Source: Betaproteobacteria bacterium HGW-Betaproteobacteria-22
GTDB lineage: Bacteria; Pseudomonadota; Gammaproteobacteria; Burkholderiales; Methylophilaceae
DNA length: 64,000 nucleotides
NCBI GenBank assembly: GCA_002842285.1
Contig: PHCJ01000002.1
Location: forward strand, 62,001 to 126,000
Direction of reading: 5' to 3'
Shown here one piece after another: positions 18,267-62,936 of this stretch. The notes under the pieces were generated by a model, which did no database searches, was not told where the DNA came from, and was given only the letters and a program-made list of their open reading frames with translations. A program made the position numbers and the translations under genes. Within the stretch, counting starts at the first letter, position 1. Each line of letters starts with the position of its first letter.

Positions 18267-18289
18267 TTTTGGTCATTTTATAATGACTT
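18261..18289. other. left end/attachment junction of the island
   Basis: Bases 18261-18266 (GTAGTC) are recJ codons Y and D read backwards, and 18267 onward is element sequence. Just inside is a near-palindrome, GGTCATTTTATAATGACT (18271-18288), whose outer arm GGTCAT recurs at the right tip. It is a plausible recombinase binding site. The exact crossover bases cannot be fixed from one copy. Confidence 0.7.
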
Positions 18290-18410
18290 TGTTAAAAAAT
18301 AAAATAGATAACTGATTTTTTTGATTTTTTTAAAAAATAATTAACATCAAATTTACAATTTTGTTATTGTAATGAAAATTACCGGCATATTAATATTAAG
18401 CGTTAATTAA

Positions 18411-19733
18411 ATGAAGCTACTACAAATTGGAAATTATTATTCTTGCGTTATAAATGAAAATGGGTTTATTCAATATCCATATAGTCATTTTATAAATCAA
18501 AAATCCAACCCTGGGACGCGCTTAGTTGAATTGAAGGCGTTGAGAATCTTAAATAAGTATTTATTTGCTCACAGAATAGAACTTGCCAATCAGTGCTTCA
18601 AAAATGAATTACTTACTTACGATCAAGCTAGAGAAATTAGAAACCTATGCTGGATTCCAATTGAATCGATTGATTCAATGTCAGACCAAGTCCTTGTAAG
18701 GTTATTTAAGGCCACATCTAAAGCAAGACCAGAAAATAGACCAAATTCAGTAAGTAGAAGAACAGCTGCCCAGCGAGCTGAAACAATTTCACGTTTCCTT
18801 AATCATTATGAAATGTACTTTGTACCTCAATTAATCTCCAATGAAGAATCGCGACTGAAAATCAAAGACAACCTGCGAATGATTAACAATTTGCTTCGTT
18901 CCATAAAAGTTTCAGATTCTAGCCACCCTGGACAAATAGTAAGCCTACCATCATCGAAGTTTATTTCTGTTATTGAAAATGTATTAAAAAATCCAGAAAA
19001 AATTTTTGCAAATGAAATTGGAAAAGTTTCAAGAAACATTTTAAGAGATCAATGTATATTTTTACTTGCTTGCGAAGGACTACGCCCTGGTGCGATTGCT
19101 TCAATTGTGCTTGGTCTACATTACCAACAAAGCTCTGGCTACCTTGATTTATCATCACAATCAGCACCTTCAAATTCGCCATGGTCGCCACGGTCCAAGG
19201 GGTCAACTAGTATTTCAAGGGCGTATTCTCAACCTAGGTTAAGGGTATACCCATTTACGCAAAAACTAATTGATCTTTATATCAAAACAGAACGAGCTGC
19301 CATTCTTAGAAAATCAGCCACAAATAAAAGCCATGGTCGATTATTTATCTCTGAGCGCGGCCAACCCATTGCCAGTTCAACGACACTAAAAAACATATTC
19401 ACTCAAGCTGCAAACTCTTTAGGAAAACTGGGAGTATTAGACATTGAAAATGATCCCCACATGCTCTCTAAAAAGAGAAATGGAGAAGATAGCTATAAAT
19501 TTTATGCTTATGTTTTAAGGCATAGTGCAGCATCATTTTTTCTAGCAGCCAATGGTATAAGTGACGCAACTCTTGATTCCATGAAATCAAGATTTGGCTG
19601 GTCAAGAAACAGCGATCAACCACAAAGATACGCACAACGACAGTTTATTGACATTTCTAATGCCGTTTTACATGACCACATGAATCAACTGGAAGAGTTT
19701 GCCAAAAAAAATAAAGGAACGGCAAGTGACTAA
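18411..19733 (+). CDS. tyrosine recombinase 1 of the element trio
   Basis: This is a site-specific recombinase of the phage-integrase superfamily and the first gene of a four-gene overlapping set at the left end. The 440-residue protein has a C-terminal catalytic domain with the first arginine in CEGLRPGAIASI (~res 227) and the second in YAYVLRHSAASFF (~res 367). In that box the usual histidine of HxxR is replaced by tyrosine. A tryptophan lies in RFGWSRNSDQ, and the likely nucleophile tyrosine is in PQRYAQRQF (~res 407). No strong Shine-Dalgarno is seen. The AT-rich 140 bp before it should hold the operon promoter. Composition is much more AT-rich than the nuo region, suggesting transfer. 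Confidence 0.85.
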   Translation: MKLLQIGNYYSCVINENGFIQYPYSHFINQKSNPGTRLVELKALRILNKYLFAHRIELANQCFKNELLTYDQAREIRNLCWIPIESIDSMSDQVLVRLFKATSKARPENRPNSVSRRTAAQRAETISRFLNHYEMYFVPQLISNEESRLKIKDNLRMINNLLRSIKVSDSSHPGQIVSLPSSKFISVIENVLKNPEKIFANEIGKVSRNILRDQCIFLLACEGLRPGAIASIVLGLHYQQSSGYLDLSSQSAPSNSPWSPRSKGSTSISRAYSQPRLRVYPFTQKLIDLYIKTERAAILRKSATNKSHGRLFISERGQPIASSTTLKNIFTQAANSLGKLGVLDIENDPHMLSKKRNGEDSYKFYAYVLRHSAASFFLAANGISDATLDSMKSRFGWSRNSDQPQRYAQRQFIDISNAVLHDHMNQLEEFAKKNKGTASD

Positions 19734-21225
19734 AAATTATAGATTATATGGAAATGGCAGTATTGAATTTGATAATCAGTCTTTTGAATTAATAATTACT
19801 CAAAAGAATGAATTTGGTGATAAATCAATTCGCATTAACTTTTCAAAACTTAGGGGCTACTATAGTGATCGGTTTTTGTCGAATATAGCTGATTATTTAG
19901 TGTTTCGCTCAGAAAAAGGAATAGCACTTTCATCCATCAGATCTGAGGGAGGCTTAATTCTAAGCTTGCTAAACAAAACAATTGGCTCTGACCTGCTAAA
20001 AGAAAACGCACAGCTAGAATTAATTTCACAAACATATTTGGACTGTCTTCATTTAATTGACAATAAGCTATTAGAAGGTGAACTCTGCAACCTCTCTCTA
20101 ATATTTAATACTAAATTTCCTGGCATTTTTGGTAATGATGTCAACAAGTCATCACTACCTAGAAAAACTAATCCTCTTGGGCATTTAGGCAGTAGAATCA
20201 AAAACATTTTGAAGCAATCTTTTTCGCCAGCCACGCTTGCTTCCATAATGGTTATTCTTGAAAACTGCTATGAAGAAGGAGAAATAACATTAGGTCAGTG
20301 GGCGTTCTTCAATCTAATGCTAAATACCCGGGTGCGCATCGGAAGCATAAGAATGATGTCTGTTGCAGACATAGTTCATGATGAAAAAAAGGATCAATAT
20401 TATGCTTATATACTTCCAGAAAAACAAAATGTCGATAACCCACAAAAAAGCACATTTTTACTAACGAGAAGTGTGGGTCGTATTTTAAGAAAGCAAAGAC
20501 TAGAAGTACTTAAATGTAATAATTCGAAAAATATTGCCATAAATAATCAACAAAAAATTGCATTATTTCCTTCATTATCATTTCAAAGTAGCTGCTCGAG
20601 CAAAAAAAATGAACTTGGCTTTTATTTATCAGTAGGAGGATTTGCCAATTACTATCAGACATCAATTAACTTACTTTTAGCGGAAAATAAAATATCTACA
20701 AATGTTTTTCGTCATAGCGTTGGCACTCATTTAGCAAGTAACGGAATGAGCTCCAAAACCATTCAAGCAGTTTTACGCCATGTTGGCGCGCGCACATGCC
20801 AAGCATATGTGGAAATTCACTTAAATGGGAATTTAGAGCGGCTTAGCAACGCGCTTGAGCCAGCCTTCGACAAATACTTTCCTGTATTTAAGGAATTTTT
20901 ATCTTCTAATGCAGTACACGACCAAAGTAAAGTAATCTTTAGTGACAATCTTGAAAGTGGCGAAACTGTGAAAGAAGGTCTATGTGGATCTGACATGCGT
21001 TGTTTCTCCGCCCCATTTAGTTGTTATTCATGTAAAAAATTTACCCCATTCTATGACGTTGACCATGAAATAAATCTAAAAATTATTGAATCTAAAATAA
21101 CCAAATTTAAATTACAAGGTCTCGCATTTCAAGATTCCATTCAGACCCTAAAGAATACCAAAGCATTTATTAACCTAACGATTCAAGCTTGCAATTCGTA
21201 CAAGAGCTCTTTAAATGATTATTAA
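19726..21225 (+). CDS. tyrosine recombinase 2 of the element trio
   Basis: This is a second integrase-superfamily protein. I favour the GTG at 19726 because it follows AAAGGAAC and overlaps the preceding stop by 8 bp, giving 499 residues. The catalytic domain shows an arginine in NTRVRIGSIRMMS (~res 204), NVFRHSVGTHLASNGMS (~res 326, Asn in place of the usual His of HxxR), LRHVGARTCQAYVEI with the presumed nucleophile tyrosine, and a C-terminal cysteine cluster CGSDMRCFSAPFSCYSC that looks like a zinc-binding tail. Such a tail is seen in other transposon-type recombinases working in groups. The next gene starts 11 bp before its stop. Confidence 0.83.
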   Translation: MTKNYRLYGNGSIEFDNQSFELIITQKNEFGDKSIRINFSKLRGYYSDRFLSNIADYLVFRSEKGIALSSIRSEGGLILSLLNKTIGSDLLKENAQLELISQTYLDCLHLIDNKLLEGELCNLSLIFNTKFPGIFGNDVNKSSLPRKTNPLGHLGSRIKNILKQSFSPATLASIMVILENCYEEGEITLGQWAFFNLMLNTRVRIGSIRMMSVADIVHDEKKDQYYAYILPEKQNVDNPQKSTFLLTRSVGRILRKQRLEVLKCNNSKNIAINNQQKIALFPSLSFQSSCSSKKNELGFYLSVGGFANYYQTSINLLLAENKISTNVFRHSVGTHLASNGMSSKTIQAVLRHVGARTCQAYVEIHLNGNLERLSNALEPAFDKYFPVFKEFLSSNAVHDQSKVIFSDNLESGETVKEGLCGSDMRCFSAPFSCYSCKKFTPFYDVDHEINLKIIESKITKFKLQGLAFQDSIQTLKNTKAFINLTIQACNSYKSSLNDY

Positions 21226-23680
21226 TCTAGAGCTGGCAAAACAAAAAATTGCACTTGATATATGGGTTGAAAAATGCATAAATAAAATGCATGACCGGTT
21301 TCCTAGTGTGGATTTTTATACTGATACTTGGAAACTAGCCGATCAATCATTAAAAAATCCACTTCAAAAATCTTCCGTTAGCAATGCACCTAAATGCCTG
21401 CAAATTAGCTTTAGTTCATCAATAAAAAAATTTCAGGGTAAAGATACAAACTTCGTATTGTGTTTGAAGTGTTTAGCATTCGAATTCATTCAAACTAACA
21501 AAGTTGATTTTTTATCAATAAATCTAGTCTATAACGAACTTGCAAAGCTTCCTATTCAAACAATTTTCTCAGTTACTGATTTTGATTTAAGAAGAATTGA
21601 GAATGATCTATTATCAAAATCTAAATTAAATTCTATCAGCTCTGAATCACATCTCAGGTTTTTGAGACTTTTAGAATCTTTCATAGTTCCTAAAATAAGA
21701 GAAGCAAAGGTCATCCCTCAGTTATTTTTCCGACAAGACCCAGCAATTAAAAACGAACTCATAGTATTAAAAGATAAACATCTAAGCGATAAATCAAAAA
21801 GAAGAAAGAATTCAGATGACAGAAACGCAAGAGTTGCAGCTACGTCTGATGCCATAAGTGCAAGTTTCAATAACGACCCTCGACTTAACGATTTTGACCA
21901 CTTAGTATGCTGTACTCTCGTTATATTATTTACTGCGCCGTCTCGAATTAATGAGCCTCTTTTGATGAGTCTCGACGATTTCATTTCAATTGAAACTTAC
22001 AAGGAACGTGCTGAAGGTGAAATGGCATCTGTTTATGTAGCTCAAAACCAACTCTTTATTGCAATGAAGGGTTCAAAAGGTGCAGACTGGGCTCCTAAAC
22101 CGGCCCTTAGCTTTATGCATGATCTTCTGTTAATGGCTATTGAGCGTATCAAAAATTTTGGTAAAAGATCTAGGATGCTACTTGAGCATTACGAAGAAAA
22201 TCCAGAAATTTTATATTTACCAAAAGAACTGGAATACCTAAGAAAAAAAGATCTTTGGGGATCTGAAGATATCACAAGGGTAATAAGACTCAACTGGGAA
22301 AACAAATACGCTGACATTTCTAGAGCCCAACATATTATTAATAATATTGTTGATTCAAAACCAAATGGAATGATAAAAGTAAAACTATCTGGCAAAGATA
22401 GCTTTTTAATTCCACGAGAGGTAGTTGAAACATATCTACTTGGAATGGTCAAAGATGCTATTAAGAAATGCAGAAAACACGACAATCAAATCTATTACGG
22501 ACGTTTATCAAATCGCCTCTTTTTATGCGATGTAGCAACGAACCAACTTGAATTTCTTCCTAACGTTCTAAGATATAGCACCCTTTCGCGGAGACTTGTT
22601 CAACGACAAGGTCCAAAAACAGTAGTAACTGGCAGTATTTTTACCAAACTTGGGCTTAAAGTGCCTTCTGGAAATAACATTATTGATGCCTATATTACTA
22701 CTCATGAAGCACGATACTTTTTAACAGATGCCGCTGCAAAATACGGGGATGATCTTTCAGATGTATTAATTAACAAGTGGGCAAGGCGTCTCAATATTAG
22801 CCAACTAAATCACTATATCAAGGATGACCCAACGTTTGACGCCAATCACTCCTTAATGCCTAAGATTGACTCCTTGAATGAGTTTAGTGAGCTTTCAGAT
22901 GCAATTGAACAGACGACAAAAATTAATGAAGAGTTTGGGGTTAAAACAGACTTAATTAGAGTAAATGAATCACGCGTATTAGTTACGCAAATCGATGCTG
23001 TAGTCAAGGCTATTGAGGACAGACCTGTCGCAAGAGTCAGTAATAAAATCATCTTATTATATCCATCAGAATTTGGAATTTGCCTGCACCAACATCATGA
23101 AACCCCATGCCAAAGTTATGGGGTCGAATGTATGGGATGTAATGACAACATTACGATTAAGGGTCATTTACCTTCTAACGATGCAGTTAGAAATGAATCT
23201 TATAAACTACAAAACAGTGTTATTAGTCAATTAGAGAAACTAGTGACAGAGTACCATCGCGAGATTGCTGAAAACCAGGATACTTTTGCTGATCATATTG
23301 TTAATTTGGTGAAAGGCTCACTAAACGTAGAAACACTTTCAAGCAAACTAATCGATGAATTTGAGGAAATTAAAGATTTAATAAAGGACATGAATCTAAG
23401 ACGGAGACTCGAACAAGCGTTCGTCGCTAAAAAAACAGTTCAGTTTATTGATGATGAAAAAACCATGGTTGGAGGAACGATTAGATATCGCAATCCTTAC
23501 AAAAACGGAAGACAAGGCGCAGATAAAGTAGAGTTAAACTTTGGTGGATGGGAAAAACATTGGCAAGAAGAAAAAGAAATTGAAGATAAATTCCCGTTCC
23601 TTAAGAATACTCGTGTATCTGAGCTAACTGACACAAGCGAGAACTTTATTGATTATAGTGTTGATGAGGATGTGGATTAG
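21215..23680 (+). CDS. large tyrosine recombinase 3 of the element trio
   Basis: This 821-residue protein is the largest of the trio, and its ATG overlaps the previous stop (translational coupling). The integrase-like core has a first arginine in FTAPSRINEPLLMSL (~res 245). The second-arginine box THEARYFLTDAAAKYGDDLS (~res 507) keeps the HxxR pattern. NKWARRLN supplies the Trp/His position and LNHYIKDDP a candidate nucleophile tyrosine (~res 542). A Cys/His cluster, CLHQHHETPCQSYGVECMGC (~res 626), suggests a zinc site before a charged, partly helical C-terminal region. It is far longer than an ordinary integrase; the first ~240 residues have no motif I recognise. Confidence 0.8.
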   Translation: MIINLELAKQKIALDIWVEKCINKMHDRFPSVDFYTDTWKLADQSLKNPLQKSSVSNAPKCLQISFSSSIKKFQGKDTNFVLCLKCLAFEFIQTNKVDFLSINLVYNELAKLPIQTIFSVTDFDLRRIENDLLSKSKLNSISSESHLRFLRLLESFIVPKIREAKVIPQLFFRQDPAIKNELIVLKDKHLSDKSKRRKNSDDRNARVAATSDAISASFNNDPRLNDFDHLVCCTLVILFTAPSRINEPLLMSLDDFISIETYKERAEGEMASVYVAQNQLFIAMKGSKGADWAPKPALSFMHDLLLMAIERIKNFGKRSRMLLEHYEENPEILYLPKELEYLRKKDLWGSEDITRVIRLNWENKYADISRAQHIINNIVDSKPNGMIKVKLSGKDSFLIPREVVETYLLGMVKDAIKKCRKHDNQIYYGRLSNRLFLCDVATNQLEFLPNVLRYSTLSRRLVQRQGPKTVVTGSIFTKLGLKVPSGNNIIDAYITTHEARYFLTDAAAKYGDDLSDVLINKWARRLNISQLNHYIKDDPTFDANHSLMPKIDSLNEFSELSDAIEQTTKINEEFGVKTDLIRVNESRVLVTQIDAVVKAIEDRPVARVSNKIILLYPSEFGICLHQHHETPCQSYGVECMGCNDNITIKGHLPSNDAVRNESYKLQNSVISQLEKLVTEYHREIAENQDTFADHIVNLVKGSLNVETLSSKLIDEFEEIKDLIKDMNLRRRLEQAFVAKKTVQFIDDEKTMVGGTIRYRNPYKNGRQGADKVELNFGGWEKHWQEEKEIEDKFPFLKNTRVSELTDTSENFIDYSVDEDVD

Positions 23681-23684
23681 TCAT

Positions 23685-24017
23685 ATGAATGGACCAGGAA
23701 GAAAACCAAGCATTAATGATCAGTTGCAAAAAAAAATTATTCGACTGATACACTCTTTAGAAGTTACCGAAACCAAAATTTCTTGGGACTTATTAAAAGA
23801 CGAGATCAAAAAAAGTTATAAACTTAACATTACACGACAAACTCTCGCTAGCAATTCGAAAATTGTTGAAGCCTTTAGAAATGCAAAAGAATACCAGTTA
23901 AGCTTGAAGCGACAAAAACTAGATTTACCTTTTAAAACACTTCCTAGAGATGTCAAACAGCGTCCAAAACTTTCCACTAATCAGCGTCCAATTGTTTCCA
24001 CTTTTTCACTCTGCTGA
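23685..24017 (+). pseudogene. small fourth protein of the recombinase operon, 3' end replaced by IS21
   Basis: It starts at the ATG 4 bp after the stop of recombinase 3 (MNGPGRKPSINDQLQKK). The native sequence runs for 89 codons to the IS21 tip at 23952. The last ~21 codons, ending at 24017, are read from the IS terminal repeats, so the natural C-terminus has been lost. The visible part is basic and helical, with a helix-turn-helix-like stretch (YKLNITRQTLASNSKIVEAF). In position and size it resembles the TnpC-type helper that follows the recombinases in Tn554-like elements; that parallel is inferred from gene order only. Loss of its end may affect mobility. Confidence 0.6.
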
Positions 24018-24748
24018 GCACGGCTTTTGCGGTGCTTAAAACGGTAAGAATCATTACCTGTTTCCAATATTTCACAATGATGTGTAATGCGATCCAGTAG
24101 CGCCGTCGTCATCTTCGCATCACCAAATACTTGCACCCACTCACCGAATGTCAGGTTCGTGGTGATGATTAAAGACGTTTTCTCATAAAGCTGACTGATG
24201 AGGTGAAATAGTAATGCGCCACCAGATGCTGGAAATGGCAAATAACCCAGCTCATCTAAAATGACCGCATCCACCAAGCACAGTTGTTTCGCCAGATTGC
24301 CGACCTTGCCCTGCGTCTTCTCACGCTCCAATTGATTGACCAAATCTACTGCGTTGTAGAAACGCACACGCTTACCTTGATGAATCGCAGCCACGCCAAT
24401 GGCTGTGGCCAGATGCGATTTACCTGTGCCCGTGCCGCCCACCAGAATCAAGTTATGCGCAGCTTCCATAAACGCTGCACTGGCTAACTGTTCAACCACC
24501 ACCTGTGACAGCGGCGTTTCGGTCCAGTCAATGCCTGTTAAATCACGATGAATTGGGAAGCGTGCTGCCTTAAGTTGATGACGCAGGCTTTTGAGTTTAC
24601 GATCAGTTTGCTCTGCCGCCAGTAAACGCTCCATCCAGGTTTCTGGACGATGCGCTTGCTTGGGTTTCTCAGCTTGTAATTCACTCCATGCCGTTGCCAT
24701 GCCATAGAGTTTTAGTGCCTTTAAGCTGGTTGCGTAATCAATGGACAT
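23981..24748 (-). CDS. istB: IS21 helper ATPase IstB
   Basis: IstB is the AAA+ helper that assembles on target DNA and activates the IstA transposase. The 255-residue protein has the Walker A motif [17 protein letters not shown] (~res 102), Walker [16 protein letters not shown] (~res 157) and a sensor region [16 protein letters not shown] (~res 196). Its start overlaps the istA stop by 11 bp and its stop lies within the left terminal repeats. It looks intact. Confidence 0.95.
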
Positions 24749-26246: not shown

Positions 26247-26350
26247 TCCAGATACCCCCAGCTAAAACACTGGATGGTGACATACTGAGGTGGAAACTAT
26301 TGGACGCTGTTTCCACCTCTAATCTGGAAAGTATTACACGCTGTTTGACA

Positions 26351-26503: not shown

Positions 26504-26609
26504 TAGTGACATCAGAATTATATTCACATTAGGCAGCTAAATCCGCAAAGCTGACGGTCAACTATAGAAGCTAACCGACTGTGATCAGCCCAAAGCGGAC
26601 GTTCAATGT

Positions 26610-27052: not shown

Positions 27053-27129
27053 TTATCATTTCTATTTTTTATCATACATAGTACGTTCAAGTAATTGCAA
27101 AGAGTTTTTTTTAAGCGTAAAATTGATCC

Positions 27130-28149: not shown

Positions 28150-28159
28150 TTTGTGAATC

Positions 28160-37668: not shown

Positions 37669-39786
37669 CTAGAACAGCATTTTCCAACTCAATGCAGCAG
37701 TCAAATCAGCATCCTGGCCAGCACTTGCAACAAAGCTACTCATGCTGATTAGATTAGCTGGGTTGACTCTATAATCAATCTCAGCACCGAGACGCGCCCA
37801 GTTCTTTTGAACTTGATTCCCATCCTGACGGAAACCTATACCCACGCCAAGGGCATTAATGTTGCCTTGTATAGTGGCCACTTTATCATCAAAACGATGG
37901 GCAATTTCAGCATGCCCCAGCAGGGTTACTTGCTCGCTCAAAAGATACTTACCGGTCAATCCAATACGTAACTCTTTAGCTGTATGGTTTTGGTCTTGGA
38001 AATTTGCCGGAGCAGACCCACCAATCTCTCTATACCCATCCACCTCAGTTTTCATAAGGGAGTAAGCAATACGCGGACTGAAAGAGACCTCTCCCAAAGA
38101 GAACGCATCTTGCCAATCTATTCTGGCTCTCAGGCTATAACCCGTGATATCCGTTTCACCTTTGGATCGAACTGTACCTGAGATGGCATAGCCACGTGAT
38201 AGGTTGGCATCCCACTCACCATAAACACCTAATACAGAAGCGAGTAGGGTTGTGTTTGGAATATACCAATTGACCTCAGCTACACCATATTGTCCATTGA
38301 TACGACTTTTACCGTTGTTCGCTAAATCAAGATTGGAGAAGTTGCTACCCACACCAAAACCTATCATCACACCCTGATTAGTGAATTTGTGACAGGCACC
38401 CACTTCAGCAGTACCGATTGTCCCATTGGCTTGACGCCAAAGACGACTGAGATCACCGCTTACCCAACCACAACTCTGACCATTCTGTAGAGCGATCTCG
38501 GACAATGTCCTGTGATGCGCACCATTGAGTGTGAGCGAGGTAAGACCTTCCATCTGGTTACTAACGGCGTGCGTTTGCGCCATGCTGTTTGCCAAATCCG
38601 TCAGGCCGATGATGCCGTTGCCACCGCCCGTCAAATCAGGTTCGACACGTGCAATAAAAGCCTCCCTGCCATTTACAGATTGCCCATAACCGACCACAGT
38701 GTGACCATCACCACTTATGCCACGGGCTTCAGTCAACTTTGTAAATCCTACGGCGCTGACACCTGCATCTGCTAACCAGTCCTGCACTCGAATCATGCCG
38801 CCAGTCTGTGTCCAGCGGAACGCTTCCTGACCACTGGCACTAACCCCATAACCGACAACCACCGAACCATCGCTATTGACCGCATTTGCCTGACTAAGAA
38901 AACTACCCCCTGCCAGATCGCCCAGCCCCACCATGCCACCGGCCTGTGTCCAGCGAAAGGCTTCTCGACCAGCGGCACTATTCCCGAAGCCCACTACTAC
39001 AGAGCCATCGCTATTGACCGCTTTCGCCTCACTAGAGAAACTTCCACCTGCTAGGTCTCCCAGCCCCACCATGCCACCGGCCTGTGTCCAGCGGAAAGCT
39101 TCGAAACCACTCGCGCTATTTCCTAAGCCAACCACTACCGAACCATCGCTATTGACCGCATTCGCCTGACTATAAGTACTTCCACCTGCTATGTCCCCCA
39201 GCCCCACCATGCCGCCGGCCTGTGTCCAGCGGAAGGCTTCTCGACCAGTGACAGTATTCCCGTAGCCCACCACTACCGAACCATCGCTACTAACCCCATA
39301 TGCCTGACTAGAGAATGCTCCTCCTGCCAGATCTCCAAGCCCCATCATACCGCCGGCCTGTGTCCAGCGGAAGGCTTCGGTACCACTGGTACCATTCCCA
39401 TAGCCTACCACCACTGAACCATCACTACTCACAGCATTTGCCTGACTCTGGAAGTAACTGCCAGCCAGATCTCCAAGCCCCACCATGCCACCGGCCTGTG
39501 TCCAGCGGAAAGCTTGAAAGGTAATACCACTGTATCCCACCACTACCGAACCATCGCTACTGATCGCATTTGCCTCACTATAGAAAGTTCCTCCCGCCAA
39601 CTCACCCAAGCCACTGAAAGTGTCCGCGGCATAGGCTGCTGGAGAGATGAGTGGCATTACAGAGAGCAGAGCGAGCAGAATTGGCCTGACACTCATGCCT
39701 CTAGGCATTTGGGATTTGTAATACTTAGTATTCTTAAGAAGAGAAGTTCTATTACGGGATGGTTGCACAATTTTTTTATTCGTCAT
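37669..39786 (-). CDS. HAF-repeat autotransporter (outer-membrane beta-barrel)
   Basis: I use the ATG complementary to 39784-39786 (MTNKKIVQPSRN), giving ~705 residues. A long N-terminal region (~50 aa) ends in a signal peptide (VMPLISPAAYA). The passenger is made of about seven copies of a 46-residue HAF-type repeat (GLGDLAGGSFSSQANAV, SDGSVVVGYGN, AFRWTQAGGMVGLGD). The C-terminal ~270 residues form an autotransporter beta-domain ending in a typical Phe (AALSWKMLF). It should be displayed on the cell surface; adhesion is a reasonable guess but not shown. A GEMM riboswitch lies in its leader, so cyclic-di-GMP probably controls it. Confidence 0.85.
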   Translation of the reverse strand: MTNKKIVQPSRNRTSLLKNTKYYKSQMPRGMSVRPILLALLSVMPLISPAAYAADTFSGLGELAGGTFYSEANAISSDGSVVVGYSGITFQAFRWTQAGGMVGLGDLAGSYFQSQANAVSSDGSVVVGYGNGTSGTEAFRWTQAGGMMGLGDLAGGAFSSQAYGVSSDGSVVVGYGNTVTGREAFRWTQAGGMVGLGDIAGGSTYSQANAVNSDGSVVVGLGNSASGFEAFRWTQAGGMVGLGDLAGGSFSSEAKAVNSDGSVVVGFGNSAAGREAFRWTQAGGMVGLGDLAGGSFLSQANAVNSDGSVVVGYGVSASGQEAFRWTQTGGMIRVQDWLADAGVSAVGFTKLTEARGISGDGHTVVGYGQSVNGREAFIARVEPDLTGGGNGIIGLTDLANSMAQTHAVSNQMEGLTSLTLNGAHHRTLSEIALQNGQSCGWVSGDLSRLWRQANGTIGTAEVGACHKFTNQGVMIGFGVGSNFSNLDLANNGKSRINGQYGVAEVNWYIPNTTLLASVLGVYGEWDANLSRGYAISGTVRSKGETDITGYSLRARIDWQDAFSLGEVSFSPRIAYSLMKTEVDGYREIGGSAPANFQDQNHTAKELRIGLTGKYLLSEQVTLLGHAEIAHRFDDKVATIQGNINALGVGIGFRQDGNQVQKNWARLGAEIDYRVNPANLISMSSFVASAGQDADLTAALSWKMLF
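38770..39600 (-). repeat. in-gene tandem repeats of ~138 bp (HAF passenger)
   Basis: Six to seven units repeat at ~138-bp spacing. The block CCGGCCTGTGTCCAGCGGAA (coding for FRWTQAGG on the other strand) appears near 38940, 39075, 39210, 39350 and 39490, with small changes. DNA identity between units is high in the FRWTQAGG and SDGSVVVG parts and lower in the linkers. Such arrays can gain or lose units by recombination. Confidence 0.85.
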
Positions 39787-39977
39787 TATTGAAGCTTTTT
39801 TGATGTTATTTGATTGCTTTAGTGTTTCTAATATATAACCCAACTTAAAAATTGAAATTATTAATTTAGAAAGATGGTAAAAGAATTTCCCTACTTACGT
39901 AAATGGGGGGCAGAGAAATAACGAAAGAAGTTTAAGAATCGCAGAGTTCCGCGACAGAAAGACGCACCTCTGGACTG

Positions 39978-40091
39978 ATACCTAGTTTACATAGGTATGA
40001 AGATTGGCGATCTCGCTGTCATAGAGCAATATTTAAATTATTCCTTAGACCGGTAACTTTGCGTCCCCGCTTTTCAGTCGGGTATACCTTT
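39978..40091 (-). promoter_or_regulatory. cyclic-di-GMP-I (GEMM) riboswitch
   Basis: Read on the minus strand from 40091, the leader contains AAGGTATACCCG, a GAAAA loop, GCGGGGACGCAAAG and ACCGGTCTAAGG. These are the conserved core of the GEMM-I aptamer (GGGACGCAAAG plus CTAAGG). Helix P1 pairs AGGTAT at the 5' side with ATACCT at 39993-39998 (as read on the other strand). That 3' strand can instead pair with a downstream copy: ATACCTA-TGTAAAC-TAGGTAT (39978-39998) is a perfect 7-bp hairpin, a ready expression platform. The autotransporter start codon is ~190 nt downstream. Whether ligand turns the gene on or off cannot be told. Confidence 0.82.
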
Positions 40092-40099
40092 TATATTAA

Positions 40100-54609: not shown

Positions 54610-54612
54610 TTT

Positions 54613-55602: not shown

Positions 55603-55721
55603 TGGTAGCAGAAATTCGATAGCGCAGTTATTTCACATGATTTATTTACGCAGTAGCTAGCCATGCCTTACAGATTTAAGTTGAATTAGACAGGACAAAT
55701 GTTCATGATGAGTTGTTTTGG

Positions 55722-56054: not shown

Positions 56055-56141
56055 TCCAAGCCCCATGACCTTAACTTAGTAAAATTATAAACGACCTACT
56101 TGGTAATGAATAGGCTGAAAGTTCTATGTCTGCTTTGGGCC

Positions 56142-57787
56142 GAGGCTGTGTCAAAACGCCCATAAATTCAATCTGAAATAAACACATCGATGTAGATGTT
56201 GTATAATTTAACCATCTGATTACATTGTGTTTATTTAAACATGAAACGATTTATACAAGGTCAAGATAGAACACAAAGCACGCTTTTGCCAGAGCTACTG
56301 GATGAATACATAACCGAAGATAACCCAGTACGCGTCATTGATGTCTTTGTCGATCAATTAGCGTTATCAGAGTTAGGGTTTGAAGGCGTGCACCCTGCAC
56401 AGACTGGACGACCGTCTTATCATCCTGCTGCTATGCTCAAACTCTATATCTACGGATACCTCAACCGCATTCAATCAAGTAGGCGCTTGGAAGCAGAAGC
56501 CAATCGCAATGTTGAACTCATGTGGTTGATTGCAAGACTCAATCCTGACTTCAAAACCATTGCCAGATTCAGAAATGAGAATGGCTCTGCTATACGCAAG
56601 GTTTGCAGCCAGTTTGTAGAATTGTGCCGTCGTTTGAATTTATTTGCTGATTCCATGGTGGCTATCGATGGCAGCAAGTTCAAAGCCGTCAACAGCTCTG
56701 ATCACAACTACACACAAGCCAAGATTAAAAGTCGCATGCAAGCAGTGGAGAAGAACATTCAACAATACCTGGATGATTTAGAAGCCGCTGATATTATCTC
56801 CCCTAAGCAATCAACACCCCATCAAATAAGATTAGCTGAGCGTATTGCCATGTTCCAAGCGCAAATGAAAGTACTGGAAACAATCGAAGCTGAAGTGCAG
56901 TCAACGCCAGATAAGCAACTCTCACAAACCGACCCAGATGCACGCTCTATGCAACATCGTGGTGGTGGCATAGTGGGTTATAACGTACAAACCGCTGTTG
57001 ATACGCAACATCATCTCATCGTTGCACACGAGGTCACGACAGTTGGGCATGATAGAACGCAGTTATCGAACATGGGTAAGCAGGCAAAGGATGTCTTGCA
57101 AAAAGAGACGCTGACGGTGGTCGCAGATAAAGGTTACTACAAGGGTGAGGAAGTGGTGGCTTGCGTAACCGAAGGCATCACCCCGATCATGCCCAAGTGT
57201 TTAACCTCAGGAAACAAAGCCAATGGCTTATTTGATAAGCGCCACTTTGTGTACGACCCTAAGAGTAATACCTATCAATGTCCAGCAGGTGAATTGCTGA
57301 TAGAACGTTTCCGCTCACTTGAAAAAGGTAGGCCGCACATCACCTATTGGAGTTCAAGCTGTAAGAATTGCACATTGAAATCTAGTTGCACGACCAGCGA
57401 TCAAAGACGGATTAAGCGTTGGGAGAATGAGGCAATCTTGGATCAAATGCAATCGAATCTAGAAAGCATGCCTGAGGCTATGAAGATTAGGCGATGCACC
57501 ATAGAACATACCTTTGGTACCTTAAAACACTGGATGGGTGCTTCGCACTTCTTGATGAAAACCAAGGCGCATGTCAGTACAGAAATGAGCTTACATATTC
57601 TGGCATACAATATGAAGCGAGTAATAAGCATCATGGGAAGTGTGGCATTGATGAAGGCGATGGCTGCGTAAGGCCTGCGGACTTTCTTTGTGCCAAAGTT
57701 GTAGAACAAACTTCGATCTAAACTATTTCGACTGGTTCAGCGAGACATAATTACAAATATCTGATTCTAGCGTTTTGACACAGCCTC
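56142..57787 (+). mobile_element. IS1182-family insertion sequence
   Basis: One transposase gene is flanked by perfect inverted ends, GAGGCTGTGTCAAAACG at 56142-56158 and its complement at 57771-57787. The 4-bp palindrome GGCC is repeated outside each end (56138-56141 and 57788-57791), consistent with a target duplication; because it is palindromic it could also be counted as part of the ends. Removing the IS restores TGCTTTGGGCCGATAGC, which belongs to a dispersed repeat of the region. Confidence 0.9.
56241..57671 (+). CDS. IS1182-family transposase
   Basis: This 476-residue DDE transposase has an N-terminal DUF772-type domain (RTQSTLLPELLDEYITEDNP, GRPSYHPAAMLKLYIYGYLN). The catalytic residues appear in SMVAIDGSKFKAVNS (~res 143), TVVADKGYYKGEEVVA (~res 293) and RCTIEHTFGTLKHWMG (~res 425). 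A Cys cluster, CKNCTLKSSC (~res 375), is typical of the family. The gene is intact and the IS may still be active. Confidence 0.93.
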   Translation: MKRFIQGQDRTQSTLLPELLDEYITEDNPVRVIDVFVDQLALSELGFEGVHPAQTGRPSYHPAAMLKLYIYGYLNRIQSSRRLEAEANRNVELMWLIARLNPDFKTIARFRNENGSAIRKVCSQFVELCRRLNLFADSMVAIDGSKFKAVNSSDHNYTQAKIKSRMQAVEKNIQQYLDDLEAADIISPKQSTPHQIRLAERIAMFQAQMKVLETIEAEVQSTPDKQLSQTDPDARSMQHRGGGIVGYNVQTAVDTQHHLIVAHEVTTVGHDRTQLSNMGKQAKDVLQKETLTVVADKGYYKGEEVVACVTEGITPIMPKCLTSGNKANGLFDKRHFVYDPKSNTYQCPAGELLIERFRSLEKGRPHITYWSSSCKNCTLKSSCTTSDQRRIKRWENEAILDQMQSNLESMPEAMKIRRCTIEHTFGTLKHWMGASHFLMKTKAHVSTEMSLHILAYNMKRVISIMGSVALMKAMAA

Positions 57788-57992
57788 GGCCGATAGCTGA
57801 AATCTAAAAAACCTAAACTTAACGACCGCTTTGTCCCCCTTTGCAGACCAACAACCATTTGGCTTAGTTAAGATAATTATTAGAGGCTCTTTTAAAATAA
57901 TTCTAGGTGGCTCTTTTCACTGGAATACTCACTCTTTGACATTCATCTGCATATTTATACCAAATACAGCACATAAACTAAATTAATTTCAA

Positions 57993-58820
57993 TTAAATTA
58001 AATCGTTCATATCAATTTTGTATCCTGATTGCTTCATCTCTTTTGCCAGCTGAAGTTGCCAAGCAGAAGCCTCATCAATATTTATGTATATGACACCACT
58101 AATATCATTAGGCAGCTCAATCGGGGCCTCAACTAATGCTACAACATTTTCTCTTCCCAATTTACCGATAAGATAACCATGTTCAAAAACAACATTCTGA
58201 CGCGCTCTTCCATTCAGTTCATCGACTTTAGTTTTAACATTTCCAAGATCATCAGGCGTATAAAGCACGATTGCAAAACCTACATTTGAGTAATGCTCAA
58301 TTTTCTCAATTATTGTCCGTCCAGAACTTGCTTTTTCATGAAGTATTATGGCTTCTAATCCTAGTTTCTCAACAAATCTGGCAGTCTTTGATTGCGCTGC
58401 TTGATCATGTCCATGAACGATAAATACTTTGCTTCTATCTATGCGTTCAAATTCAATCGCTGCATTATTATTAACAAGTTTAGATTTATATCCAGGAGGC
58501 CCTGCAATAAATTCATCAGTAACATCGTTGGATCGATTTATAGCTCTTTGTATATAAGAAGGTCCTCCGATAATTGTGACTCGCGAGTTCATATCCTCAG
58601 CCTTGATAGCCGGAACATATGACTCAATGGTTTTATCACTGTAATGGAATGTTATTCTTTCGATATCATGAGGCATCACAGTTTTACCATTAATCAATAT
58701 TGGCTTTCCTAGCTCATATGGTTCGACATAACGAGATATAAGTTGCTCGCGAGTTAAATCAGTTTTATATTCACCGTACAGCTTATCTGATTTTGGTTGA
58801 ATTATTACGTGATAAAACAT
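57993..58820 (-). CDS. TIR-like nucleotide-binding effector protein
   Basis: The 275-residue protein has an uncharacterised N-terminal ~130 residues. Its C-terminal domain is TIR-like, of the CAP12/Pycsar-effector type: SKVFIVHGHDQAAQSKTARF (~res 130), ILHEKASSGRTIIEKIE with the putative catalytic Glu (~res 160), FAIVLYTPDDLG (~res 178), NVVFEHGYLIGKLGRENVVA and ISGVIYINID. Such domains degrade NAD+ in anti-phage defence. No cyclase gene is adjacent, so the trigger is unknown; the N-terminal part could be a sensor. It lies 68 bp downstream of the decayed methylase/GIY-YIG locus on the same strand. Confidence 0.78.
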   Translation of the reverse strand: MFYHVIIQPKSDKLYGEYKTDLTREQLISRYVEPYELGKPILINGKTVMPHDIERITFHYSDKTIESYVPAIKAEDMNSRVTIIGGPSYIQRAINRSNDVTDEFIAGPPGYKSKLVNNNAAIEFERIDRSKVFIVHGHDQAAQSKTARFVEKLGLEAIILHEKASSGRTIIEKIEHYSNVGFAIVLYTPDDLGNVKTKVDELNGRARQNVVFEHGYLIGKLGRENVVALVEAPIELPNDISGVIYINIDEASAWQLQLAKEMKQSGYKIDMNDLI

Positions 58821-58888
58821 CTATTATCCTTATTAGATTGACACACTGGTACAAATGTAGATTAGCTGTACTTTTCAAAAAATCTTAA

Positions 58889-59949
58889 CTAAACTTTCAC
58901 CAACCTTGCTTCATTAGCATCATATCGATAATTAATTAGACTTCCATTTTTAATCTTTTCTACTACTTCATCTATCACAAATATCGGAACCATAAACCAT
59001 TCTCGTGGATTAATTGGGTTACCAAAGCGATCACTTATTTGAATATTTAGTCTGGCCGATTCGAAAAAACGATGAAGTAAATTTTCGAGCTTGACTCGAT
59101 TGATGTTATACAGCTCATAAGTGGCAACGATTTCAACATCTGCCATTAAAAACGTAGGATCAAGTTTAGCGTTCACTAAACGTTTTTCAACGCTACCTCC
59201 AGTTACACCGATTTTATGCAATAAACTTACATGAGGTTTAATTTCCGGATGATCTGATTTGCTTCTTAGCACGTAAATTGTGCCACTCTCAATATCATCA
59301 TCTCCCACATTGTCATCGAACAACGGCCCAGCGTTAGGATCGGTTATTCTGCGGCCAGCTTCGTCTTTATAAAGAGCCCGCTGAAAAGAACGCTTCAGTA
59401 TGTTGTATTCTGTTCCGTTATCATAAATAACGCGCATTCTTGCATCTAATTTTCCGTTTGGAGGTACGAATTCTTCGCCAACTTCAGCTATATATGCAAT
59501 CTGGCCAGCCAGTATAAAAAACTCACCTTGATTAACACTGGCGTCTTCTTTAAAGCGACGAGTTTTCCTAACATCTGCCTTTAATTCGTATTGTACTTGC
59601 TCAAATAACGGCTTGAACTGTTCAAACGTTTTACAAACCGTTCGCTGAGCAACCTCTTCAGCAGCTCTGATTTCAGCACGCGGACGAACATGTTTAAGAT
59701 TGGTAATGTCGCTTCCACCGGTCGCATCAATACCAAGTTCAGCAAGTAATGCATCATCATCTAAATCTTCGAGTGCCTTTTCCGCAAGATTTGGTGCGTT
59801 TGTTAGTAATCCATTTTTATCAAACTCAGCCAGTAACTCTCTGCATTCTGACGATGAACGTATCTTATCCAGCCTTACCGCATAGACTCTTTCAAAAATA
59901 TCTTTATCTTCGCCGTGCATAGGCAATCGCCCATGGTCGGAAATTGCCT
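58889..59949 (-). pseudogene. GIY-YIG (T5orf172) nuclease-family protein, N-terminus deleted
   Basis: From about 59944 downward the frame reads ISDHGRLPMHGEDKDIFER, VYAVRLDKI, DDDALLAELGID and KTFEQFKPLFEQVQYEL. It ends with a GIY-YIG/T5orf172 domain: GTIYVLRSKSDHPEIK, LHKIGVTGGSVEKRL, ATYELYNINRVKLENLLHRF. Proteins of this type usually start ~40-60 residues earlier and sit beside large DNA methylases. Here the 5' end is fused, out of frame, to a truncated methylase gene. The C-terminal domain is otherwise complete and might be made from an internal start such as the Met of LPMHGE. Confidence 0.75.
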
Positions 59950-60641
59950 GATGCGCGGTCTTCAAGCTTTGTATTCATGGCACGAAAAATTTCGCTAATA
60001 ACCCAATCAATATCTGAGGCATCCCTAGCACTCATTTGTTCTATGGTGCCGGTAAACAGGTCATCGCCATTAAATATGTCGGTATCTTCAGAAAAAAAGC
60101 AGAAAATTAAACGAGCCATAAAATGGTTCATGTCATGGCGACGTTCTGGCTTACCCCATTCAGGGTTGCTTCTTAGCAGTTCAACATAAAGCCTATTAAG
60201 GCGACTGGTCGCCCGAATATCAAATGAACTTTCGCGTATCTGTTTTACGGTAGAGATTCCAGCAAGCGCTAGGAAAAAGCCAAAATGATTAGGAAAGTCT
60301 TGATAGGTACATGCTACGGTTTCACCAGAGGTTAAGTCTTCTGCCTCAAAATCTAAACCATCGGTTGCTAATATAAATTTAGCTTTAGCCGTTGCAGGAC
60401 TTGAACGCAGCTCGTTTAAGATTGTGTTTGTATTACCTAGACTGCAAACAGCAATGTGAATGTTATTACGCTGAAGCACACCATTTTCGACATCAGATTT
60501 ATTCTCGCCACCAGTTCTAAGGCGCTTAATTGTGGTTTCTTTATTACCAAAAGCTTCTAGGAACGCATAGGGGAAATTTGCAGCATCAAATGGCTGTTCC
60601 GCTAAGTTACTAATGGCTTCTTCAATTTCTACGGCATTCAA
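59904..60641 (-). pseudogene. N-terminal fragment of a large class I DNA methyltransferase
   Basis: Residues 1 to ~228 (MNAVEIEEAISNLAEQPFDA, YAFLEAFGNKETTIKRLRTG, RNNIHIAVCSLGN, DFPNHFGFFLALAG, RHDMNHFMARLIFCFFSEDT) match the N-terminal region of large (~900 aa) single-chain adenine methylases of the type IIG/BREX-like kind. The frame then breaks at about 59945 and ends at 59904 with unrelated residues. The catalytic NPPF/Y domain and specificity region are gone. A deletion joining it to the GIY-YIG gene explains both truncated ends. Confidence 0.75.
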
Positions 60642-60822
60642 GGAATTTTTACTCTTCTAATTATTGTTTAGATTATAAGGTTTTAAGATCGAATTAATGC
60701 CTCTCTTAGCATCCTTTCCAAGAAGTTTAGCATAATGGTAGTAAGCTATTAGATTAGCGTTGTTCACATGCTTGTAAAGTTAAGTATTGTTTTAACTAAT
60801 AAGTCTAAATGCAAGTGGGCAG
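60642..60822. other. noncoding gap between methylase fragment and recJ-like gene
   Basis: This is 181 AT-rich bases with no gene seen. It should hold the promoter of the leftward methylase/GIY-YIG/TIR genes and any terminator of the recJ-like gene. No inverted repeat strong enough to name was found. Confidence 0.4.
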
Positions 60823-62598
60823 TTAATTATCAATTTTAGAAATGATTTGGAGTTGTATTTTTTTGTTATTGCGATACCAATTACTCTTTAAAACATAAAC
60901 AAGATTTAAAGTACTTCCAATATTAAATTCTATAACAGCATCATCTTGAACAGCATTAAACCAAATAGCATCCAAAACTTTAACGCCATCCCAAAGTTCA
61001 AGTTTCAAGTGACTACCATCCCCCAGCGTTTTTATTGCCTTTACTTCAAACTTACCTTTGAAGGTAGGGTAAGCAAAATCTCTTCCCCAAGGCTCCAATT
61101 TTTCTAATTCACCCAGAATATTAAAATCGCTAAGTCCTGTTGGTAATTCGCCATCGACCCAAATTATTGGCTTCAATTCTTTATTGCCAATCTGGGCATT
61201 AACAGCTTCTTCATAAGCAATCACAAATTGTTCAAATGAAGAGATTAAAATTGATCCGCCACCTGCACCTACATGGCCACCATGACTTAAAAGTAATTCG
61301 GGATACTTTTCGCTAACGTATGACAATGCCTCTTTAACATTAAAGCCAGGTATTCCACGAAACGACCCAGAAGCAATTTTTATTTCATCAGTTGAAATTA
61401 CGTTCTTAACACCAGCACCTTTCGGTGAAAAAATCCCTGCAGGTTTACCGAAAGCCTCAACTAATCTGCTTGCAGTAATTCCATGAACTCCACTATGTCC
61501 ATCTTCAAAAAATAAAACGATTGATTGACCATTTTTTTTACATGCCTCAGGTATCGCTTTTTCCCTTAACTTCTTCTCAATTTCTTTTCGTAATGTGTTT
61601 TCATTCTGTAATTCTTGCCAATGTTTTTGCGCCTCTGATTTGGTCTTGGCAATTAAAAACTTAAAGCCCACTTCAGCCCAATCAAGTCTCCCTGCTGCCG
61701 CCACTGCAGGTGCAAGTCGAAAACCAATAGTTTCTGCATCAACAGGGCCGTGAAGGTCAGAGCAAAACACTTCCCAACAAGGTCGGGTCTTATTATTAAT
61801 TAATTGCAAACCACGCTTTACAAAAGTTCTATTAGTTGACGCTTTATCTGGTTTCATTGAAACGCAATCTGCTATTGTCGCTACAGCAACATAATCCAAA
61901 AGGGGCGCTAGGCTTGGAATCTTTTCTCGAACTCCTTCTTGAATTAAAGCTGTCCTAACTTTTGCCATAGTTAGAAATGCAACACCAGCACCGCATACAT
62001 GCTTGTCGTAATTTGAATCAGATCGTATTGGATTGACGACAGCGATAGCAGACTTAGGAGGACCGTTAGCGCCAATTTCATGATGATCAGTCACTATTAC
62101 ATCAATGCCAGCATCTGCAATCTTTTTAATTCGTGGTTCATCACTACTCCCCTTATCCGCAGATATAACCAAGCCTGGTTTAATATCAATGATTCTTTGA
62201 GCAACTGGTTCTGTAATACCATAACCTTCAGTAAGTCTATGGCTAGTAACTACATTTACTAATGAAGGGTTAACATTGAAGTAATCAATTAATGCTGACC
62301 ATAAAACAGCCGCCGAGCCCGTACCATCCATATCATGGTCACAGACTAGTACTATTTTTTCTTCGTTTTTGATGGCGCCCACTATCCGCCTTACTGCAAC
62401 ATCCATATCAGGTATTGATGATGGATCTTCTACATCAGATAAATCATTGGAATACAACAATTCAACATTAATTGGTTTATCTAGTCTTGATGATAAAATT
62501 TTGGCAAGCCAGCTAGACATCCCATTTTCAATTAGATTTGAATATACGGATTCATCAATTTCACGAGCTTTAAATATGGGATTTGGTGGCTTTGACAT
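60823..62598 (-). CDS. element-borne RecJ-family DHH single-strand exonuclease
   Basis: This is a complete 591-residue member of the DHH/DHHA1 family, close in length to RecJ. Motif I is VLVCDHDMDGTGSAAVL (~res 81), followed by the Asp motif LVISADKGSSDE (~138) and the DHH motif IDVIVTDHHEIGANGPP (~157). Then come GAGVAFLTM, VAVATIADCVSMKPDK, the substrate segment APAVAAAGRLDWAEVGFKF, the DHHA1 glycines SHGGHVGAGGGSI (~res 435) and a C-terminal OB-like domain (LEPWGRDFAYPTFKGKFEV). All catalytic acidic and His positions are kept. It differs strongly from the host RecJ around it and is more AT-rich. It points the same way as recJ and begins ~330 bp inside the right end. Confidence 0.9.
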   Translation of the reverse strand: MSKPPNPIFKAREIDESVYSNLIENGMSSWLAKILSSRLDKPINVELLYSNDLSDVEDPSSIPDMDVAVRRIVGAIKNEEKIVLVCDHDMDGTGSAAVLWSALIDYFNVNPSLVNVVTSHRLTEGYGITEPVAQRIIDIKPGLVISADKGSSDEPRIKKIADAGIDVIVTDHHEIGANGPPKSAIAVVNPIRSDSNYDKHVCGAGVAFLTMAKVRTALIQEGVREKIPSLAPLLDYVAVATIADCVSMKPDKASTNRTFVKRGLQLINNKTRPCWEVFCSDLHGPVDAETIGFRLAPAVAAAGRLDWAEVGFKFLIAKTKSEAQKHWQELQNENTLRKEIEKKLREKAIPEACKKNGQSIVLFFEDGHSGVHGITASRLVEAFGKPAGIFSPKGAGVKNVISTDEIKIASGSFRGIPGFNVKEALSYVSEKYPELLLSHGGHVGAGGGSILISSFEQFVIAYEEAVNAQIGNKELKPIIWVDGELPTGLSDFNILGELEKLEPWGRDFAYPTFKGKFEVKAIKTLGDGSHLKLELWDGVKVLDAIWFNAVQDDAVIEFNIGSTLNLVYVLKSNWYRNNKKIQLQIISKIDN

Positions 62599-62917
62599 TT
62601 ATACGTCCATTATTTTTACTCAGAGTGCTTTAAATGTGACTGATATAACTTTTGAATAAAAATTAATTATTTAAGAATTTACTCTAGCCCTGATCATATC
62701 TAGGCTAGTTAGTGGCATTACAACTTATGAAATTAATTGTGAAACACTAAATTTAAGAATCAGTTAATGAATAATACTTTTGTTAAACAATTAGAAAACT
62801 ACAAAGCAAATAAAGTATTTTTTTACAAACTATTATTTTATTGTTAATATATCATCGTGATAATTAATGCAGTATATTGTTTTTATTAATTTTTTTATTT
62901 AAATAATAAAAAATTTC
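62599..62917. other. AT-rich noncoding right arm of the element
   Basis: These are 319 bases of very AT-rich sequence without a gene on either strand. They separate the RecJ-like start from the right tip. They probably contain the promoter and leader of the recJ-like gene (AT-rich blocks such as TTTTATTGTTAATATATCATC) and recombinase-binding sites. The stretch has no obvious terminator facing the recJ promoter, so read-through is possible. Confidence 0.5.
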
Positions 62918-62936
62918 ATGACCGAAGAAAATCACC
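62918..62936. other. right end/attachment junction of the island
   Basis: ATGACC (62918-62923) is the inverted copy of the left tip GGTCAT. GAAGAAA (62924-62930) is the outermost element sequence, and ATCACC (62931-62936) is recJ (codons G and D read backwards). Joined to the left junction, the original recJ target reads GTAG-GTGA-CTAC on the coding strand, a short inverted repeat centred on the insertion point. Confidence 0.7.

Follow-up and report, generated by a model that had tools for sequence, protein, structure and literature searches.

The interrupted recJ locus and the RecJ carried by its island

The window analyzed here, a stretch of 64,000 nucleotides, comes from contig PHCJ01000002.1 of Betaproteobacteria bacterium HGW-Betaproteobacteria-22 (Methylophilaceae; GCA_002842285.1; G000 below), a 2.53-Mb draft genome of 40 contigs that is 99.98% complete. 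The host recJ gene on the minus strand is split in two by an inserted element, which itself carries a complete and divergent recJ close to one end (Table 1). The cut lies at VGD|YDADG, in catalytic motif I. As a preliminary description of this sequence had proposed, the two parts can be joined in frame at this point: both lie at the coordinates in Table 1, the C-terminal part is open, and the joined protein, with the overlap codon counted once, comes to 579 aa by arithmetic from those coordinates. The C-terminal part is 72% identical to the RecJ of an intact relative (residues 71-558). Read in place, the N-terminal part runs on into the element as FLRS and then meets a stop, so that the active site should form from neither host half.

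A GAT/GAC codon is found at both ends of the element, which makes it probable that this codon is the crossover overlap, present once in the empty site. The clear direct repeat at the ends is limited to GATT/GACT, compared with about 10 to 11 nt in the GInt islands discussed below. The end sequences, ATGACCAAAAGA and TTTTCTTCGGTCAT, are able to pair as an imperfect inverted repeat, and the G+C content of the element is 43.5%, versus 47% in its flanks.

The gene inside the element had been described as an intact recJ, and this description holds. Its product has the Pfam domains DHH, DHHA1, and RecJ_OB in this order, keeps the motifs DHDMDG, DHH, and GGH, and matches a RecJ-like PHROG (E = 6.9e−73) and solved RecJ proteins (8y30 at E = 1.2e−52). 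In an AlphaFold2 model (predicted local distance difference test score, 91.3; predicted template modeling score, 0.90), it shows a predicted RecJ fold with the metal-binding residues in place, and all of the top eight PDB matches of the model in Foldseek are bacterial RecJs. Residues D87, D89, D91, D148, D171, H172, H173, D244, S412, R414, and H442 are invariant over 16 aligned RecJs. According to the available part of PMC4846377, the metal-binding residues of Deinococcus radiodurans RecJ are Asp79/81/83, Asp135, His159, and Asp223; by motif, this set corresponds to D87/89/91, D148, H172 or H173, and D244, and the metal-binding Asp and His residues of motifs I to IV, as well as the GGH histidine, are all kept. 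The protein may do the host's RecJ work. A second intact host recJ, which the preliminary description had named as evidence against its reading, was not seen: a search of the whole genome for the DHH domain (PF01368) returned two matches at E ≤ 0.001, the element RecJ and the broken host recJ.

Table 1. Features of the recJ locus and its inserted element, with the recJ halves of a second genome (G013) for comparison
Feature	Position	Strand	Remarks
Host recJ, N-terminal part	63167-62931	(-)	79 codons, ending ...GTAGGTGAT (VGD)
Host recJ, C-terminal part	18266-16761	(-)	starts GACTACGATGCAGATGGT (DYDADG), open up to natural stop
Inserted element, ~44.7 kb	18267-62930, few bases ambiguous		uncut sites occur in relatives
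Recombinase A, 440 aa	18411-19733	(+)	weak tyrosine-recombinase match (PF00589 E = 0.0051, below cut-off); integrase profiles E = 0.0018, 0.004
Recombinase B, 508 aa, tyrosine recombinase	19699-21225	(+)	PF00589 E = 6.3e−10; NF041502 E = 4.4e−23, below cut-off
Recombinase-like C, 821 aa	21215-23680	(+)	23% identity to third trio gene of G013 element (E = 1.5e−13)
Fourth gene of the integration operon, small and positioned like ginD	23649-24017	(+)	31% over 59 aa to G013 counterpart (E = 2.8e−7)
Cargo with copper/silver and cobalt-zinc-cadmium efflux look	26663-55602		labels from reading translations
Defense-type cargo	57993-60641	(-)	TIR protein, T5orf172/MUG113 protein, MmeI-type restriction enzyme remnant
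Element RecJ, 591 aa	60823-62598	(-)	starts ~330 bp inside element end, reads inwards
AT-rich end of the element, upstream of its recJ	62599-62930		no blastn match to ends of other three islands
G013 host recJ, C-half	2036204-2037403
G013 host recJ, N-half	2086900-2087391

Element-type RecJ in related genomes

The element RecJ was searched for in 61 genomes (60 relatives and G000) and then in 187 genomes of the family. RecJs of the type carried by the element occur in 5 of the 187: G000 itself, UBA6140 (G206; 94% identity), G010 (86%), G013 (83%), and G184 (66%). A scan of genome contigs returned two loci, which match those of G206 and G010. Four of them are borne on islands, and all four adjoin a broken host recJ, the islands having been found with the element RecJ as the query and not by way of the recJ locus. 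The element-type gene starts about 260 to 380 bp from the junction with the broken host gene in four of the five genomes. Three breakpoints are in use: VGD|YDADG in the window, a point inside DHH in G013, and GPR|LNAAGR in both G010 and UBA6140. In G013, a single-contig genome of 3.06 Mb, the halves of recJ, cut inside the DHH codons, lie 49.5 kb apart; the element RecJ starts about 370 to 380 bp beyond the C-half, and a recombinase trio with a small gene adjoins the N-half. In G010, where the halves are on two contigs, RecJ adjoins the C-half and two large recombinase-like genes follow the N-half. UBA6140 has the cut and the terminal sequence of G010, and its RecJ again adjoins the C-half. 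In all four islands, the element RecJ is oriented inwards from the end at which it lies, and the recombinases read inwards from the opposite end in all three islands of which both ends are seen. Relative to host recJ, the island of the window is oriented opposite to those of G010 and G013. In all, the four island copies, each at a broken recJ, represent three cut sites and three recombinase sets.

In the six pairwise comparisons of the four island copies, the ratio of nonsynonymous to synonymous substitution rates (dN/dS; Nei-Gojobori method, NG86) is 0.06 to 0.13, with a dS of 1.2 to 2.0 in five of the six pairs. Such low ratios at dS values above 1 indicate that the element recJ is maintained under purifying selection. 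Among the matches listed, recJ is full length in most relatives without the element. The preliminary claim that the carried RecJ is a replacement for the broken gene is, with these observations and the four adjoining broken genes, well supported.

Fragments of recJ that run to contig ends in G015, G066, and G152 were left out of these counts, as was G146 (G146:C87, 7998-8774), in which a C-terminal part of recJ with a stop and a frame break starts 2 bp from a contig end, near GPR|LNAAGR; the latter is suggestive. With the host-type query, RecJ matches are partial in G104, G107, and G112, no match was found in 13 of the 187 family genomes, and G151, G098, and G177 (91-97% complete) have no RecJ match at E ≤ 0.001.

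It had also been claimed that the element targets the most conserved codons of recJ. With conservation taken over 20-nt windows centered on the cuts, in 46 aligned host recJ genes, the proportions of positions that are at least as conserved as the three cuts are 9%, 7%, and 31%. By a more generous measure, in which each site is represented by the best 18-nt window nearby, the ranks are 15, 121, and 306 of 1681. The claim is moderately supported: the three sites together give P of about 0.02, but the GPR|LNAAGR site alone is unremarkable (31%). The element recJ is strongly unlike the host target at motif I and at GPR|LNAAGR, and an escape of the carried gene from its own integrase would fit two of the three sites.

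Beyond the family, a sample of the order yielded 3 of 399 genomes at E ≤ 1e−72, which are G000 and two with 39% and 36% identity, and a profile search of a class-wide sample yielded 9 of 369 at E ≤ 1e−120, G000 included, the other eight being 37 to 45% identical. The stretches fetched around these eight genes have no match (E ≤ 1e−4) to 12 integration-module proteins of three islands. At least two of the eight occupy standard recJ neighborhoods, with hom-thrC-recJ and recJ-prfB-lysS-like surroundings in G597 and G891, respectively (labels by reading).

In a tree of 38 RecJs (IQ-TREE), which includes seven of the eight class-wide relatives (G689, of the same genus as G900, was left out), the five element-type RecJs form a clade with an ultrafast bootstrap support of 100, and G597 is next (97). 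This clade lies within a wider one (100) of RecJs from other proteobacteria, G343, and plasmids of Xanthomonas, Dyella, and Rhodanobacter, and it is separate from the Methylophilaceae host RecJs and from Escherichia coli RecJ. In a larger FastTree phylogeny, the C-halves of the broken genes group with their own hosts (G206 with G205, G013 with G028, G010 with G034, and G000 with G016 and G024). Because the C-halves follow their hosts and the element RecJs fall elsewhere, the trees indicate that the broken genes are vertical and the carried gene is foreign.

Two genomes hold other unusual RecJs. On a 3.9-kb contig of G343 (G343:C106, 1574-3370), a 38% RecJ is convergent with a homologue of the gene preceding the window's host recJ, as if a foreign RecJ, reversed, occupied the usual recJ place. 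In G201, a single 225-kb contig (G201:C7) encodes two additional RecJs, 48% and 39% identical to the host-type query, with no split; this contig also has replication- and repair-like genes, among them SbcCD- and polymerase-like ones (by reading), and looks like a large plasmid or phage.

The fifth genome, G184 (87% complete), has its element-type RecJ between a rhlE-like helicase gene and corA. The 52 kb around this gene contain no match to the integration-module proteins of three islands and no other RecJ, a host-type recJ was not found in the genome, and the recJ-tamA-tamB block of three relatives is absent upstream of both G184 tpiA genes (all labels by reading). These observations are consistent with domestication of the element-type RecJ and loss of the host copy. 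NAD(P)H-hydrate dehydratase was tried as a marker of the recJ block in G184 and rejected, having no match there and being unlinked to recJ in that genus.

Independence of the islands and possible exchange of recJ

The islands differ in their recombinases. The recombinase trio that the preliminary description saw in the window is present, but that layout was incomplete: a small fourth gene follows, as in GInt islands. Recombinase B reaches 81.8 bits against NF041502, for which the cut-off is 350, and recombinase-like C has no Pfam, NCBIfam, or PHROGs match. Between the G000 and G013 sets, identities are 22% (B), 23% (C), and 31% (the fourth gene, D), and the A proteins show no significant similarity. 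Both large recombinase-like genes of G010 match neither set; the one similarity between G010 and G013 is a weak one in their small fourth genes (46% over 28 aa, E = 0.001). By these comparisons, the three sets are distant or unrelated.

Among 52 genomes of the genus, recombinase A of the window matched its own copy alone at E ≤ 1e−5, which gives little power to ask whether the same element sits elsewhere. With G013 recombinase A, two matches were obtained among the 399 order genomes at E ≤ 1e−25 (32% and 31%), in G517 and G542; the former (G517:C146, 10637-12496) immediately follows an ssb gene (by reading), and the latter is a frame with one stop. The first G010 recombinase found itself and two distant relatives (31% and 29%) among the 187 family genomes; the copy in G036 lies elsewhere and recJ there is intact, as would be expected for a distant relative.

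What the islands have in common, in the parts compared, is recJ. Near the RecJ end, blastn homology spans the whole gene and extends at most about 35 bp beyond it (92.6% over 1778 bp between G000 and G206), and G010 and UBA6140 additionally share about 80 bp across the junction with host recJ. When open reading frames of at least 100 aa were compared at E ≤ 1e−6 over the parts fetched (the complete 44.7 kb in G000, 40.5 of about 49.5 kb in G013, 16.2 kb in G010, and 5.5 kb in UBA6140), RecJ was the sole protein common to all four islands, in agreement with the base-level matches; besides RecJ, G000 and G013 have in common a transposase (63%) and, distantly, B, C, and D of the trio. The closest RecJ to that of the window (UBA6140, 94%) sits on an island at another recJ site. 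Because the history of the gene and the site of insertion disagree, exchange of recJ between islands is suggested, the alternative being an old common island of which all other parts have been replaced.

Explanations for a RecJ inside recJ and known parallels

The islands cut recJ. Why they also carry RecJ is, we think, quite probably explained if the carried gene is a gene-replacement cassette, sited at the island end and shared across islands, that lets integrases use recJ as a landing site. A GInt-like site-specific integrative island with its attachment site inside recJ would disrupt the catalytic part of the host gene and simultaneously supply a RecJ of another lineage, and the cell would stay RecJ-plus. 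The terminal RecJ of the island would take over from the cut gene, excision would restore host recJ, and loss of the host half would fix the exchange. Among Methylophilaceae islands with different recombinases, the replacement recJ would be a portable single-gene cassette. We infer takeover as the reason why the islands carry RecJ, as well as exchange between islands and eventual fixation; takeover, excision, and restoration are proposed by analogy with an island in recA, for which complementation, excision, and restoration were shown experimentally (PMC4405046, from its available part). The in-frame recJ halves with their repeated overlap codon are compatible with a restoring excision.

Several observations weigh against this replacement reading. 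The four island copies come from one family, three of them from draft assemblies, and the UBA6140 contig covers the C-half end only, its recombinase end lying outside. The element RecJ stays below the curated cut-off of TIGR00644 (E = 4.5e−107; 358.6 bits versus 396.9). Motif V, GPRLNAAGR, is changed to APAVAAAGR in the five element-type proteins, and the element RecJ has DKG in place of DNG; the former change is of putative relevance, a motif-V arginine (Arg280 in D. radiodurans RecJ) helping to hold the 5′ phosphate (available parts of PMC4846377 and PMC7515722). The chromosomal RecJ of G597, which follows hom and thrC (labels by reading), has both changes too, its motif V showing APAVAA, and because it stands at a standard recJ place, the changes look like a trait of a RecJ lineage and not like island decay. 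At DHH, the carried gene keeps the core (GATCATCATG or GACCACCATG) with a different flank and is not clearly immune to an island that uses the DHH site. The host C-halves are open in all four islands, and their ratios of nonsynonymous to synonymous differences per site (pN/pS) to relatives are 0.042 to 0.049 (G013), 0.154 to 0.203 (G000), 0.203 to 0.249 (G010), and 0.154 to 0.231 (G206), compared with 0.046 to 0.205 for intact pairs; the values are only slightly raised for G000 and G010 and dS is mostly saturated, so we make no claim that the host copy decays.

The same direction is taken by G033 (90% complete, 450 contigs). Its recJ homology starts at ADL|VKLDDNN, residue 232 of a 569-aa relative and beside the motif-IV aspartate. 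The 171 bp between this point and the contig end (G033:C71, ~3280-3451) have a G+C content of 29% and show no homology to recJ or other clear homology. The gene is probably broken at a fourth point, in motif IV, and in a genome with one RecJ match in all, element-type RecJ was not found. It is possible that this is an island in recJ without RecJ; the contig ends short of the 260 to 380 bp that separate the start of RecJ from the break in the four islands.

The preliminary description had proposed an addiction-like arrangement, in which RecJ would be supplied only by the island and cells losing the island would be crippled. The DHH search of G000, which left no other candidate, and G184, where the element-type RecJ is the only one found, would suit such a dependence. 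However, E. coli is only mildly affected when RecJ alone is lost. In the window, moreover, the two host halves are still in frame, and excision restored the gene in the recA island of Vibrio (available part of PMC4405046). Addiction was the weakest part of that description because precise excision should restore recJ and be harmless while the halves are in frame; it is not supported as stated, and we regard it as unlikely. Loss of the island may be harmful only once the host gene has decayed or disappeared, which is possibly the situation in G184.

An explanation that we also judge improbable is that RecJ is ordinary cargo serving replication or recombination of the island, as on large plasmids, and that recJ is a chance site of the integrase. 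RecJ-like genes do occur on plasmids (164 of 72,556 records), and the Xanthomonas, Dyella, and Rhodanobacter plasmid RecJs (36-39%) that fall in the same wider clade lie near HU, thermonuclease, RdgC, RusA, or PRTRC genes (three regions; gene tables without pseudogenes). All plasmid and phage matches are below 60% identity to the element RecJ, and a scan of viral contigs gave two distant RecJs (30% and 26%). The possibly broken recJ without RecJ in G033 would also fit mere cargo. Set against this are the four of four island copies at broken recJ, at three sites and with distant or unrelated recombinases; furthermore, no replication gene is common to the fetched island parts, recJ alone being present in all four.

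It is very unlikely that the element RecJ is a defense or anti-defense nuclease and not a repair replacement. Although a TIR protein (PDC-S35) and the remnant of a restriction enzyme are close to it in the window, RecJ itself has no PADLOC match, and its neighbors in the G013, G010, and UBA6140 islands differ, none matching those of the window. An assembly artefact, in which a chimeric join produced the recJ split, can be practically dismissed despite the 40-contig draft state of G000 and the contig-end recJ fragments in G015, G066, G152, and G146. The same arrangement is found in single-contig G013 and in two genomes assembled independently, G010 and UBA6140; each junction used lies within a contig; and the island ends are able to pair as inverted repeats.

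The replacement reading can be taken further, to a version that could equally well prove right or wrong. RecJ would then be a tradable "landing licence," a xenologous housekeeping gene that travels as a bare open reading frame among islands with unrelated integrases, each using another block of catalytic codons (motif I, DHH, motif V, and perhaps motif IV in G033), with a reversible swap and, after later loss of the host copy, perhaps as in G184, non-orthologous displacement.

The principle of replacement is already known from the recA mobile element (RME) of Vibrio cholerae S24. According to the available part of PMC4405046, this island lies inside recA, with a divergent full-length recA at one end, an integrase at the other, and inverted repeats at its ends; the carried recA works in E. 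coli, excision restores the host gene, and the authors propose that the carried copy spares the host. In the window's island, as in those of G010 and G013, one end likewise carries a complete, diverged version of the gene that is broken, and recombinases are at the other. The target and the carried gene, however, are recA there and recJ here; the RME copy is 23% divergent from the host's, whereas the element RecJ is about 70% divergent; and the RME has one site in one strain with a phage integrase and a XerS-like gene, whereas the recJ islands use three sites and have a trio in the window. Sharing across unrelated islands or loss of the host gene is not reported in the available part of that paper. 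A 4.2-kb insertion in the thymidylate synthase gene of Clostridioides difficile, which carries a more active version (cited in the same part), also breaks a gene and brings another version of it, in a different gene and organism and with an insert of that small size.

In layout, the window's island resembles the GInt islands, which, in the available part of PMC5385486, carry three integrases (ginABC) and a small ginD at one end, have a short AT-rich stretch at the other, and show large, variable cargo and imperfect direct repeats of about 10 to 11 nt: three recombinases with a small fourth gene, cargo, and an AT-rich end are found here. The G013 set fits more closely than that of the window, matching the NCBIfam integrase_1 model below its cut-off (E = 1.6e−86; 291 versus 350 bits), and the 32% relative of its recombinase in G517 follows ssb, a GInt site named in that paper. 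GInts are argued there probably not to inactivate their targets fully, by use of gene ends and an outward promoter, whereas the recJ target is interrupted in its catalytic part and a replacement is supplied; recJ is not mentioned in the part of the paper available. The fourth gene of the G010 island matches the NCBIfam VPA1267 family below cut-off (E = 1.4e−10). We take this family to be part of the gamma-mobile-trio; however, the other genes of the G010 operon have no family match, leaving one of four operon proteins matched.

New here are recJ as a target, the several sites, the sharing across integrases, and possible domestication. A literature search of open-license PMC papers (top-ranked results where lists were long, e.g., the best 15 of 419) found no island in recJ that carries recJ, and neither multiple sites nor sharing between unrelated integrases was found in print in these results. 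The general question is how mobile elements afford to land inside conserved genes that are costly to lose. The recA island is one example in one strain, and the recurrence with recJ at several sites and with distant or unrelated recombinases suggests a general strategy, which predicts a pattern that can be searched for: a broken conserved gene with a diverged copy at the far end of the island. Such islands would offer a concrete way for a distant homologue to displace a housekeeping gene, and they would allow the exchange of DNA-repair nucleases between species to be tested. If true, the "landing licence" would make them a means of displacing a housekeeping repair gene with one of a non-orthologous lineage.

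Cargo of the window's island

Many genes of the large cargo have the look of metal efflux: a copper/silver type, with two P-type ATPases and an RND set, and Czc-type efflux genes, by reading of their translations. The G+C content from 26.3 to 55.6 kb of the window is 45.9%, and these genes are likely the selectable payload of the island. In the defense-type cargo, the TIR protein matches PADLOC PDC-S35 (E = 2.4e−95), and the MmeI-type restriction enzyme is reduced to its N-terminal 245 aa, the system being apparently truncated. A cyclic di-GMP-I riboswitch at 40003-40098 (-), above its gathering score, lies upstream of an autotransporter-like open reading frame at 37669-39843 (label by reading).

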